This document shows, piece by piece, positions 32,457-36,611 of a DNA stretch of 47,925 nucleotides. Made by a program: the position numbers and the translations under genes. Each line of letters opens with the position of its first letter. The stretch's first letter is position 1. This DNA comes from an uncultured Coriobacteriia bacterium (lineage in GTDB: Bacteria > Actinomycetota > Coriobacteriia > Anaerosomatales > PALSA-660), in NCBI GenBank assembly GCA_903831865.1, contig CAIKZH010000131.1, forward strand, positions 1 through 47,925, written 5' to 3'. Under the pieces are notes generated by a model. It ran no database searches. It saw nothing but the letters and a program-made list of their open reading frames with translations, and was not told the origin of the DNA.

Positions 32457-33023
32457 TCAGGTGCGCAGAAGAGTCCGCGTGGGAGTGACGACCGCATCCA
32501 GCGGCGCGTCGTGGCTCTCGGTGGGGACCGACTCCACCAGCTGCTCGTCGAACGCGATGCCGACGCGCAGCGCATCGGGGCGCAGTGACGGCAGGAGCCG
32601 GTCGTAGCAGCCGCCGCCCTGGCCCAGCCTGCAGCATGCGGCGTCGAACGCGGTCCCCGGGACGAGCACAAGGTCGATCTCGCTCGGAAGGGCGGCGGGC
32701 GCGTCCTCCGGCGGTTCGAGGATGCCGTGGAAGCCGGACACGAGCTGTCCGGGCGCGGCCCAATGCAGCTCGAGCGATCCGTCGCCGCACACACGCGGGT
32801 AGGCGATCCGCGCGCCACGGCCGCGCAGCGCGTCGAGCGCCGCAGCGACGTCGGCCTCCTGCGGCGTCGCGGCGTAGCCGAGCACAGCGTGCACCCGCTC
32901 GATGCCGTCGAGGGCGAGCACCCGGTCCGCGATGGCGTCGCCCGCGGCGGCGCGGACCGCCTCCGGCACGTCATGCCGCGCAGCCCTCGCCGCCTCGCGC
33001 GCCCTGCGCTTCTCGTCCGTCAC
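32457..33023 (-). CDS. 5-formyltetrahydrofolate cyclo-ligase
   Basis: The 188-residue protein has the MTHFS signature: KRRAREAARAARHDV near the start, VLGYAATPQEAD, and GQGGGCYDRLL as the ATP/folate-binding motif, followed by VGIAFDEQLVESVPTESHDAPLD. It converts 5-formyl-THF to 5,10-methenyl-THF with ATP. The reaction needs Mg2+, but many ATP enzymes do. It starts 4 bp after the NRAMP gene, so it is the third gene of the M-box operon. Confidence 0.93.
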   Translation of the reverse strand: MTDEKRRAREAARAARHDVPEAVRAAAGDAIADRVLALDGIERVHAVLGYAATPQEADVAAALDALRGRGARIAYPRVCGDGSLELHWAAPGQLVSGFHGILEPPEDAPAALPSEIDLVLVPGTAFDAACCRLGQGGGCYDRLLPSLRPDALRVGIAFDEQLVESVPTESHDAPLDAVVTPTRTLLRT

Positions 33024-33027
33024 TTCG

Positions 33028-34287
33028 TCAGCCGATCCCGAGGAAGGACATTCCCAGCAGCAGCACGGTCAACGAGATGACCACCACGATGGTCGCCCAC
33101 GCCACCACGTTGAGCACGCGGCCGTTCACGTGGTCCCCCATGATCCGCCGGTCGTTGATGATCCGGATCATGAAGATGAGCAGGAACGGCAGCATCATGC
33201 CGTTGACGACCTGCGACACCAGCATGACCGAGATGAGGTTCACGGCGGGCAGCAGGATGATCGCCGCCGCGAGGAAGATGACGAAGGTGTACAGGGCGTT
33301 GAACGCCGGCGCCTCCGACCAGCTCCGGTCGACCCCCGCCTCCCAGCCGAACGCCTCGCAGATGGCGTAGCTCGCCGTGAGCGGCAGTACCGCCGCGGAC
33401 AACACGGACGCCGAGAGCAGACCCAGAGCGAACAGCAGGGTGGCGTAGTGCCCGGCGAGCGGCGCCAGCGCCAGCGCCGCCTCCTTCGCGCTCGTGACGG
33501 CGATGTGCCGAGGGAAGAGGACGGTGCCGGTGGTGATGATGATGAAGATGGCGACCACGTTCGCGGAGATGGCGCCGATGATGACGTCCCACTTGGCCAG
33601 CGCCCACTTCTTGATCGTGGTGCCCTTCTCCACGATGTTGCTCTGGACGAGGAACTGCATCCACGGTGCGATCGTCGTCCCCGTGAGCCCGATGGCGAGC
33701 GCGATGAAGGCTTGCGTCGGGACGATCTGCGGGGTGACCATCGCGCGCGCGACGGTGCCCCAGTCAGGGCGGGCCATGAACGTCGCCACGATGTAGGAGA
33801 CGAAGACCGCGGAGAGCAGCAGGAGCACCTTCTCCACGTTGCGGTAGCTGCCGCGCACCACCAGCAGCCACACGACGACGGCAGCCACAGGCACCGACAC
33901 GTACTTGGTGACGCCGAACAGTTCGAGGGCCGCAGCGATCCCGGCGAACTCGGCCACGGTGGTCGCGGCGTTGCTCGCGAGCAGGAGGATCATCGCCAGG
34001 AGCGTGGGCCTCACTCCATACTTCTCGCGGATGAGCGCCGCGAAGCCCTTGCCGGTGACCGCGCCCATCCTTCCCGCCATCTCCTGCACGATGACGAACG
34101 AAGGAGTCATGGCGAGCATCATCCACAGCATCGCGTAGCCGTAGCGCGCGCCAGCGACCGAGTACGTGGAGATGCCGCCGGAGTCGTTCCCGGCGCTGGC
34201 CGCGATGATGCCGGGGCCGATCACCGCGAGGAACGAGAGAAGGGCCACCCACCGCGGGTTGAGCCTCTTCAGGCGCTCCCGGATCAT
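33028..34287 (-). CDS. NRAMP-family divalent metal transporter with altered metal-site residues (probable Mg2+ or Mn2+)
   Basis: The 419-residue protein has eleven predicted helices. TM1 reads GPGIIAASAGNDSGGIST, aligning with the usual DPGN region: D35 is kept, P becomes S36 and N becomes G38. TM6 reads TIAPWMQFLVQS where canonical NRAMPs have the MPH motif, so the Met ligand is replaced by Ala. Loss of the soft methionine ligand is expected to shift selectivity to harder ions. This resembles the NRMT group described in Eggerthella (from memory). It is separated from mgtE by one base and sits behind an M-box, supporting magnesium transport. Confidence 0.88.
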   Translation of the reverse strand: MIRERLKRLNPRWVALLSFLAVIGPGIIAASAGNDSGGISTYSVAGARYGYAMLWMMLAMTPSFVIVQEMAGRMGAVTGKGFAALIREKYGVRPTLLAMILLLASNAATTVAEFAGIAAALELFGVTKYVSVPVAAVVVWLLVVRGSYRNVEKVLLLLSAVFVSYIVATFMARPDWGTVARAMVTPQIVPTQAFIALAIGLTGTTIAPWMQFLVQSNIVEKGTTIKKWALAKWDVIIGAISANVVAIFIIITTGTVLFPRHIAVTSAKEAALALAPLAGHYATLLFALGLLSASVLSAAVLPLTASYAICEAFGWEAGVDRSWSEAPAFNALYTFVIFLAAAIILLPAVNLISVMLVSQVVNGMMLPFLLIFMIRIINDRRIMGDHVNGRVLNVVAWATIVVVISLTVLLLGMSFLGIG

Positions 34288-34288
34288 C

Positions 34289-36100
34289 TCAGGCTCCCGC
34301 GACCCGGGCGAACAACATCGACAGGGCGAGGTAGAGCGTCACGGCGGCCAGCGAGGTCAGGGTCGTCACGACCGCGGAGGAGGCGCGCCATCCCTCGCCT
34401 CCGCGCTTGCGCACGAGGGCGGGATAGATGGCGGTGGCCGCGGTCACGATCGCGGTCGTGAGCGCCAGCGCGCCGGCGAGCGCGAGAGAGAGGGCGAGCG
34501 GCTCCGCCAGCGCTTCGAGTACCGCGAGGGCGATGAGTCCGGAGAGGACGCCGAGTGCGAGTCCGACGAGGGTGTTGCCCAACAGTCGGCGCCAGAACCC
34601 CGGCATGGTGGTCTCGTTCTCTATGAGGATACCCAGCTCGTGGTCCGCCACGTCCTCGCCCACGCGCACCACCAGCGGCACGAACAGAGCGATGACGGCG
34701 AAGATGGCTGCGTGCTCGGAGAAGATGCGCACGACCAGGGCGGCGGCGATCCCGAGGACCGCCCACACCGCGAGCCAGTTCATGGACTGCGCGAGCCACG
34801 CGGCGACGCCGGTGGCCTCCAGGGCCCGGCGGGGCGCGGAGCCGGTCGCGAGCCGAAGATCTTCCGCCGACTCCTGCTCCATGACCTCGAGCGCGTCGTC
34901 GACCGTGACGATGCCGAGGATGCGCCCCGCCTCGTCGATGACGGGGATGGCGAGCAGGTCGTACTTGCTCATCATCTCTGCGACCTGCTCCTGGTCGTCG
35001 TCGGGACCGACGCTGAACACGTCGCGCTCGGTGATGTCCGTGACCGTGGTCTCGGGTGGCGACACCACCAGGTCGCGCAGCGAGACGACTCCCTCGAGGA
35101 TGCGGCGCGCTCCCACCACGTAGACGTAGTAGATGTTCTCCGCCTCGGCCGCACGCGACCTCAGCTGGTCGATGACCTCCTGCGCGGTCATGTCCTCCGA
35201 GACCGTCGTGATCTCGGGCGTCATGATGCCGCCCGCGGTCTTCTCGCGGTAGCCCAGCAGCTTGCGCACCTGCCGTGCCTCGCGCACTCCCATCAGCCGC
35301 AGCAGGGCCTCGGCCTTGTCGTAGGGCAGGTCGCCGATGATGTCGGCGGCGTCGTCCGGGTCCATGATCTCGAGGATGTCGGAGGCGCGCTCGTCGGTCA
35401 GGTCGTCGACGACCTGTGCCTGTATCTCGTCCTCCATCTCGGAGATCGTGTCCGCGACCTGGTCGTCGTCGAGGTGCTGGAACACCAGGGCGCGCTGGGA
35501 AGGCGAGAGCTGCTCGAGGACGTCGGCGATGTCGGCCGGGTGCAGCTCGTGCAGACGCCTGTGCGAGACGGAGAGCTTGACGTTGCCGAGGTCCCGGTCG
35601 AGGAGCTCCATGTAGTTCCAGGCGATCAGGTTCTCCTTCAGCGGGCGCCCGAAGACGCTTCCGATGGCGTTCGCGGCGCCCTCCAGGGGCGGCCAGATGC
35701 CGCGCAGGATGCCCCGCGTGCCCACCTCGGCGCCGAGCAGGCGCAGCTGGTTGCGAGACTCGGAGAGCTTGAGGTCGTTGACGCGCACGACCTTCATGCC
35801 CTGTGTGTCGACGATCTGCTTGTTGAGCAGGTCGCGCGCGAGCAGCACCTCGTCCGGCTGCTGGTATGAGAACCGCAGGTCGAGGGCCTTCGTGTTGAGG
35901 TGGGCGCCCGCCTCGTCGTACGCGTCCACGAACTTGCGCCACGACAGCATGAACGGCGTCTTGTCGGGACCGACGAGTGCGAGGGAGGTGACCCTGGGGA
36001 AGACCTCGCCCGTCGCGATCGCGAGGTCCTTGATGGTGCCTATCGGCTGGCCGGCGGAGTCCGTCACCGGTCGGCCCAGCATCCGTGTGAGGTAGAACAT
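34289..36100 (-). CDS. mgtE: MgtE-type magnesium transporter with N-terminal PRC-barrel-like region
   Basis: The 603-residue protein begins with a PRC-barrel-like region (MLGRPVTDSAGQPIGTIKDL and following, residues about 1-75), then a linker, then the MgtE N-domain of helical repeats (HELHPADIADVLEQLSPSQ, MDPDDAADIIGDLP). A CBS pair follows (GGIMTPEITTVSEDM and VTVDDALEVMEQE), then about five C-terminal membrane helices. MgtE is a Mg2+ channel gated by its cytoplasmic N and CBS domains. ATG 36100 follows GGGAG. The membrane part is weakly conserved relative to canonical MgtE, so ion selectivity is inferred from family and from the M-box upstream. Confidence 0.85.
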   Translation of the reverse strand: MFYLTRMLGRPVTDSAGQPIGTIKDLAIATGEVFPRVTSLALVGPDKTPFMLSWRKFVDAYDEAGAHLNTKALDLRFSYQQPDEVLLARDLLNKQIVDTQGMKVVRVNDLKLSESRNQLRLLGAEVGTRGILRGIWPPLEGAANAIGSVFGRPLKENLIAWNYMELLDRDLGNVKLSVSHRRLHELHPADIADVLEQLSPSQRALVFQHLDDDQVADTISEMEDEIQAQVVDDLTDERASDILEIMDPDDAADIIGDLPYDKAEALLRLMGVREARQVRKLLGYREKTAGGIMTPEITTVSEDMTAQEVIDQLRSRAAEAENIYYVYVVGARRILEGVVSLRDLVVSPPETTVTDITERDVFSVGPDDDQEQVAEMMSKYDLLAIPVIDEAGRILGIVTVDDALEVMEQESAEDLRLATGSAPRRALEATGVAAWLAQSMNWLAVWAVLGIAAALVVRIFSEHAAIFAVIALFVPLVVRVGEDVADHELGILIENETTMPGFWRRLLGNTLVGLALGVLSGLIALAVLEALAEPLALSLALAGALALTTAIVTAATAIYPALVRKRGGEGWRASSAVVTTLTSLAAVTLYLALSMLFARVAGA

Positions 36101-36270
36101 GTCTGCTCCCATGCCGTGGGCGCGCCTGGCTTCCTGCGGGCGCGTTCCTTGATAGAGGGGATCTGTCGGAGGCGGTCCCGACTGATCCCGCACGGCGGGA
36201 GCCGGGACCTAGCGACTACTTGAGGGAGTCACAAAGTCCTCTTCTGCTCGGTTGCATGACCGACACGACG

Positions 36271-36300
36271 AAAACAGCCCCGCGTCTTCGACGGGGGCTG
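36271..36300 (-). terminator. Rho-independent terminator of the M-box expression platform
   Basis: In transcript sense CAGCCCC pairs with GGGGCTG, with an inner CGTC/GACG pair, followed by TTTT (36271-36274 on the opposite strand). It lies about 70 bases downstream of the M-box aptamer and upstream of mgtE. This is the expected off-state structure of a magnesium riboswitch. Confidence 0.88.
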
Positions 36301-36372
36301 CGTGGGATGCGGGCCGACACAATCACCGACAAGGCGCCGGGTCTCATGAAGACGCCCGCGCCATCCGCTCAC

Positions 36373-36544
36373 GCTCCGTCCCTCGTCTGTGGTTTGAGCA
36401 CTGCCCGACGTGATGCCGAGAGATCCGGCAAGCCACTTTATCCTTCGCCTTAAGCCGGCGAGGGCTGTTCTACCCATTGGCGTCTCTCGACATTTCCGGG
36501 CAGTGGCCTGTGTTCGAACAGGAGCCGCACCTAACGGATGGAGC
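36373..36544 (-). ncRNA. M-box (ykoK) magnesium riboswitch aptamer
   Basis: The minus-strand transcript carries the M-box consensus pieces in order: CGUUAGGUGCGGCUCCUGU, CCACUGCCCGGAAAUGUCG, AGACGCCAAUGGGU with AACAG after it, GGCUUAAGGCGAAGG, and GGGCAGUGCUCAAACCAC. The outer helix pairs GCUCCAUCC (36536-36544) with GGACGGAGC (36373-36381), with one mismatch. The aptamer binds Mg2+ and promotes termination when magnesium is plentiful. It controls mgtE, the NRAMP gene and the folate cyclo-ligase gene. Bases 36101-36646 contain no protein gene. Confidence 0.95.
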
Positions 36545-36582
36545 CATATTCGTGGTGTCAACGCCCCCGGAGGGGCCATGCC

Positions 36583-36611
36583 ATTGTAGGCGCGGCCTTG
36601 GAGGTGCGCAA
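36583..36611 (-). promoter_or_regulatory. Promoter of the M-box operon
   Basis: On the minus strand TTGCGC (-35, 36606-36611) and TACAAT (-10, 36583-36588) are separated by 17 bases. The predicted start near 36576 lies about 30 bases before the aptamer. No other gene intervenes. Confidence 0.65.

Follow-up and report, generated by a model that had tools for sequence, protein, structure and literature searches.

Three closely spaced genes, encoding an MgtE homologue, an NRAMP-type transporter and the folate enzyme MTHFS, probably constitute a single magnesium-import operon in which an NRAMP-related Mg2+ transporter (NRMT) would be the importer, an MgtE-derived protein would sense Mg2+ and restrain NRMT, and an M-box leader would attenuate transcription. 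They lie in a 47,925-nucleotide stretch of DNA (the window), and the proposal draws on what could be read from sequence: the gene cluster, the riboswitch, leader complementarity across the window's order, the signature and clade of the NRMT, pore loss with sensor retention in the MgtE homologue, and conserved gene linkage. On the minus strand, which carries every feature, promoter, M-box and terminator are followed by the MgtE homologue, the NRAMP gene and MTHFS (Table 1). The intergenic gaps are 1 bp (MgtE homologue/NRAMP) and 4 bp (NRAMP/MTHFS), the same gene order and spacing as given in an initial annotation of this DNA. The open reading frame of the MgtE homologue begins at 36112, but the ATG at 36100 (MFYLTRMLG) is the likelier start, since it is preceded by GGGAG and agrees with the starts of related genes.

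Table 1. Features of the candidate magnesium-import operon and its leader (window coordinates).
Feature	Position	Strand	Basis or content
Candidate promoter, TTGCGC-17-TACAAT	36583..36611	-	8/12 consensus; most leaders in the order have near-identical letters at the same place
Leader hairpin followed by TTGACA	36556..36576	-	[T/C]TGACA in 23/23 leaders of the order
M-box Mg2+ riboswitch aptamer	36372..36545	-	RF00380, 122.3 bits
Predicted intrinsic terminator of the expression platform	36275..36300	-	Hairpin and T run
MgtE-like protein, 603 aa	34289..36100	-	PRC-type N-terminal region, MgtE_N, CBS pair, sensor plug helix, predicted pore-dead transmembrane (TM) domain
Predicted NRMT, NRAMP-related Mg2+ transporter, 419 aa	33028..34287	-	Motif, PDB match, tree
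MTHFS, 5-formyltetrahydrofolate cyclo-ligase, 188 aa	32457..33023	-	TIGR02727 143.8 bits, PF01812 114.1 bits

The M-box leader

The M-box is the sole Rfam match in the window. The cmscan match to RF00380 spans the full model (1-169) and scores far above the cut-off of 44 bits (E = 5e-27), which bears out the full M-box of the initial annotation, where an Infernal search with this model had been suggested. M-boxes are present in 28 of the 41 genomes of the window's order, and were also found at NRMT loci labelled Geobacteraceae, Peptococcaceae, Clostridia and Acidobacteria. At the NRMT loci of Eggerthellaceae, Collinsella and other Coriobacteriales (L117, L120, L124, L127, L132, L136, L153, L160, L167, L180, L183), the M-box was absent by both searches.

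The promoter proposed earlier was missed by a consensus scan and is weak when taken alone, yet its recurrence among relatives argues for it: within the order, 17 of 23 leaders have, 5′ of the M-box, a pair scoring at least 8/12, versus 5% of shuffles, mostly in the form TTGC..-17/18-TACAAT. The [T/C]TGACA element lies between promoter and aptamer, 8-14 nt 5′ of the M-box, and falls outside the Rfam model; in most cases a hairpin, variable in sequence, comes before it. The element could base-pair with the aptamer's invariant UGUCGA, a site that offers no variation by which to judge such pairing; a complement of the conserved TTGACA recurring 3′ of the aptamer was looked for in the leaders and not found.

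Approximately 70 nt past the aptamer, a hairpin of about -19 to -21 kcal/mol is followed by TTTTCGTC, as expected of the terminator described in the initial annotation. Across the order, 18 of 25 leaders keep comparable hairpins (below -14 kcal/mol, then T runs), versus 3 of 150 shuffles. The 5′ arm of the terminator reads CCCTCGTC in most relatives and is the exact complement of GACGAGGG at the 3′ end of the aptamer. Across 19 leaders, pairing between the 3′ strand of the P1 helix and the terminator has a mean of -15.0 kcal/mol versus -10.5 kcal/mol for shuffled P1 strands, the best of 200 shuffled sets reaching -12.2 kcal/mol. The antiterminator pairing of the window's own leader (-11.9 kcal/mol, one mismatch) is weaker than that of its relatives and, on its own, no better than shuffles, its support coming only from the 19-leader comparison. 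These values point to an expression platform in which the terminator would compete with the aptamer's P1 3′ strand, if more weakly in the window itself, and the predicted leader architecture fits classic M-box attenuation.

The MgtE-like partner

The MgtE homologue comprises a PRC domain, MgtE_N, two CBS domains and a C-terminal region whose PF01769 match falls short of the cut-off (21.8 versus 27.6 bits); its TIGR00400 (mgtE equivalog) score of 247.9 is above the cut-off. With MgtE channels it shares MgtE_N, the CBS pair and the acidic Mg2+-sensor residues, while D432, the GGNTGNQ motif and an above-threshold PF01769 match are missing. A PRC-type N-terminal region followed by MgtE_N-CBS, encoded next to NRMT, places it in the NRMT-partner family. 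The cytoplasmic Mg2+ sites of TtMgtE include E59, D91/D247, D95, D226/D250, E258 and D259 (PMC5882242). In TtMgtE numbering, all 30 partners of the order carry the sensor acids D91, D95, D214, E216, D247, E255, E258 and D259; 28 of them have D226, and at least 29 have an acidic residue (D or E) at positions 59 and 250. E258 and D259 correspond to E417 and D418 of the window protein.

A partner gene is directly upstream of NRMT and on the same strand at 70 of 80 NRMT loci, distributed over many phyla and including one archaeal contig. Eggerthellaceae partners have one C-terminal hydrophobic helix left and their plug-helix acids are eroding; those of other phyla have no TM domain, and their E258 is mostly K or R. 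M-box NRMTs also occur with no adjacent partner gene (L133, L149, L191), which implies that NRMT can work without the partner. The MgtE-derived protein would most likely be a membrane-anchored sensor that restrains NRMT at sufficient Mg2+. It could instead serve as a Mg2+ chaperone, a scaffold, a stability factor or a sensor for another target, its TM domain being a decaying anchor. The loss of much of the plug-helix sensor from the soluble partners of other phyla, and a TM domain that evolves fast and gets lost, would suit such a role, as would the A. capsulatum experiment, the only co-expression test we know of, in which a co-expressed soluble partner gave no better NRMT rescue (PMC4072509). 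The NRMT in that experiment seemingly carried Mn2+, and the result argues neither for nor against inhibition by the partner. Since the sensor residues are near-completely kept in all TM-bearing Coriobacteriia partners, which points to Mg2+-dependent switching beside the membrane, we consider a role other than NRMT inhibition rather unlikely.

The pore residues show the opposite pattern to the sensor. D432 of TtMgtE aligns with S587 of the window protein, and the GGNTGNQ site reads VGEDVADHE. Among TM-bearing Coriobacteriia NRMT partners, D432 and a GGNTGNQ-type motif are each kept in none of 38, versus all nine canonical MgtEs of the same order, and a D432A substitution abolishes TtMgtE conductance (PMC5882242). 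Between species, the partner is 33% identical in the TM domain and 74% in the cytoplasmic part, compared with 61% and 67% in canonical MgtE, indicating that the partner's TM domain evolves much faster than its cytoplasmic part. The invariance of W450, R483, I497 and G517 across the order suggests that this domain is still under some constraint. An AlphaFold2 (AF2) monomer has a five-helix TM topology. Superposed on full-length MgtE, it matches approximately 440 columns at an rmsd of about 12.5 Å, reflecting domain orientation, so that only the cytoplasmic fit is meaningful (target TM-score 0.82-0.91) and the likeness of the TM fold to MgtE is a feature of the predicted model.

The best reading of these sequences is that the protein is pore-dead and sensor-intact and that its gene is no ordinary channel gene. 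The plain mgtE transporter gene of the initial annotation must accordingly be reassigned to the NRMT-partner family. That annotation implied two parallel importers under one riboswitch, with the MgtE-like protein still acting as a Mg2+ channel through an altered pore. The TIGR00400 score, the five modelled TM helices and the four invariant TM residues are compatible with a channel, but the pore ligands are gone from every one of the 38 partners, D432A kills conductance in TtMgtE, the TM domain is twice as far from identity as that of canonical MgtE, and relatives of the same family have one TM helix or none; a functioning channel is therefore distinctly improbable.

In a tree of the cytoplasmic domains, rooted on 12 canonical MgtEs (root support 81), all Coriobacteriia partners form one clade (support 96) that is sister to all the soluble partners of other phyla (99). 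The presence of the TM domain requires two changes on this tree, most simply two losses. Re-acquisition of the TM domain is the alternative, given the few canonical MgtEs sampled and the root support of 81. We regard it as an even call that a dead Mg2+ channel has been turned into a regulatory subunit, gated by Mg2+, of a Mg2+ importer with an unrelated (LeuT) fold, with Coriobacteriia as an intermediate that retains the whole channel body, Eggerthellaceae retaining one helix and other phyla the soluble domain. The partner gene on a contig labelled as a Bifidobacterium breve MAG (L189) groups with an Acidobacteria sequence, and this contig is probably mis-binned or mislabelled.

The NRMT-type transporter and its gene neighbourhood

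TM1 of the NRAMP protein reads N34-D35-S36-G37-G38 and TM6 reads T204-T205-I206-A207-P208-W209, so that the TM1 Asn, the TM6 Met and the first His of TM6 are missing. The initial annotation had already noted altered metal ligands (D35 present, G38 in place of the Asn, Met lost), and the residues agree. They include DxxG in TM1 (D35-S-G-G38) and TxxA in TM6 (T204-T-I-A207), and DxxG-TxxA/T is the motif that defines NRMTs (PMC8806188). The operonic NRMTs of 24 relatives from the order share this DxxG-TxxA motif, and GTT[IV]APW and ND.GG occur in all 25 operonic NRMTs of the order. The proton-accepting first His of TM6b is replaced by W209, as in EleNRMT, which transports Mg2+ without proton coupling and has Trp and Asn at the two TM6b histidine positions (PMC8806188). 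EleNRMT (7qia) is also the best PDB match, at 467.8 bits versus 109 bits for DraNramp. In the phylogeny against NRMT that the initial annotation had called for, the protein lies inside a 45-row Coriobacteriia NRMT clade together with EleNRMT (support 99), apart from MntH/NRAMP proteins (an outgroup of only three NRAMPs).

The earlier description of this protein as a magnesium transporter holds as far as its NRMT type is concerned. For the substrate we infer Mg2+, from the kinship and motif shared with EleNRMT and from the M-box, a form of control that has been proposed as a criterion for a Mg2+ substrate (PMC4072509). Carriage of Mn2+ or another metal, as by the A. capsulatum homologue, is highly improbable given the M-box leader, the EleNRMT kinship and the DxxG-TxxA site, even though rescue of Mn2+ uptake is on record for one protein of the wider group (PMC4072509).

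At three loci from the window's genus or family (L030, L039 and L046, in G002, G005 and G006, respectively), the operon NRMT is merely 47-50% identical and is closest to NRMTs of other phyla; L046 in addition has its genes in reverse order. The NRMT was apparently swapped in place at these loci while the MgtE-like partner was retained, and such substitution by NRMTs of other clades argues against a highly specific NRMT/partner interface.

Within the order, the NRMT operon and canonical MgtE are nearly exclusive, with both present only in G019. CorA, canonical MgtE and MgtA were not found above cut-off in G005 (96% complete), G009 or G020 (92% complete), all at least 90% complete, for which the NRMT operon may be the only Mg2+ importer of a known type. 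In the genome of the window, a CorA and an MgtA-like P-type ATPase are also encoded, which rules out the operon as its only importer.

The third gene is a clear MTHFS, scoring well above the cut-offs of TIGR02727 (84.9 bits) and PF01812 (27 bits). It is single-copy in 40 of the 41 genomes searched, the window's being the sole copy of its genome, and was not found in the remaining genome (G007). MTHFS lies -10 to 87 bp past NRMT in 20 of 24 loci. The two genes are also neighbours in the window and, judging by coordinates, in G017, G031, G004 and G027, so that roughly 25 of the order's 29 operons share the arrangement; in operon-free genomes MTHFS is located elsewhere. The initial annotation had extended magnesium regulation to this folate enzyme. 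The cluster does reach MTHFS, in a position conserved over the order, while Mg2+ control through the M-box operon is suggested by gene order only. A conserved third gene of this kind hints at a connection between Mg2+ shortage and one-carbon metabolism within the order.

Proposed feedback and known systems

The most economical mechanism would be feedback in two layers, riboswitch and sensor protein. At high cytosolic Mg2+ the aptamer P1 helix would close, the leader terminator would form and transcription would stop; at low Mg2+ the P1 3′ strand would pair with the 5′ arm of the terminator and the three genes would be read, MTHFS as the third. NRMT would admit hydrated Mg2+ without coupling to protons, driven by the ion's electrochemical gradient. 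The MgtE-derived protein, presumably a channel no more, would retain the Mg2+-sensing N/CBS/plug-helix assembly and a ligand-free membrane domain. As a prediction from the leaders, the first layer, the M-box transcription stop, is well supported. Linkage and residue retention suggest the second, in which the partner may contact and inhibit NRMT; a brake would be useful because EleNRMT lacks proton coupling.

What the MgtE-like neighbour of NRMT does has been a question since 2014, and the Coriobacteriia form separates pore from sensor: loss of the channel ligands in 38 of 38 partners, with the sensor ligands kept, predicts Mg2+-dependent restraint of NRMT by the partner. For annotation, a TIGR00400 match alone is insufficient to call such genes Mg2+ channels. 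The linkage of M-box, NRMT and MgtE-like gene is not new: an M-box-controlled NRMT with an MgtE-like neighbour was published in 2014 (Shin et al., PMC4072509). A literature search, conducted chiefly without subscription papers and thus weak evidence of novelty, returned no pore-dead MgtE beside NRMT and no MTHFS in an M-box operon.

The operon resembles three known systems. With the M-box/NrmT operons of Clostridium acetobutylicum and others (PMC4072509) it shares the M-box leader, NRMT and a neighbour homologous to the MgtE cytoplasmic domain. The partner in those operons was described as a cytoplasmic domain only, whereas the window protein has a multi-helix, predicted pore-dead TM domain and a full plug helix, and MTHFS is added as a third gene. 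The Eggerthella lenta transporter EleNRMT (PMC8806188; PDB 7qia) belongs to the same clade as the window NRMT, with which it shares 57% identity, the DxxG-TxxA site and Trp for the first TM6 His; its close relative from Eggerthella sinensis (L153) has a partner with just one TM helix, at the C-terminus, and the searches gave no M-box at that locus. The MgtE channel (TtMgtE, PDB 2zy9, 5x9h) has the same N domain, CBS pair, plug helix and sensor acids and a homologous C-terminal TM region, from which the window protein differs in being without D432 and GGNTGNQ, in its additional PRC-type N-terminal region and in being encoded with NRMT.
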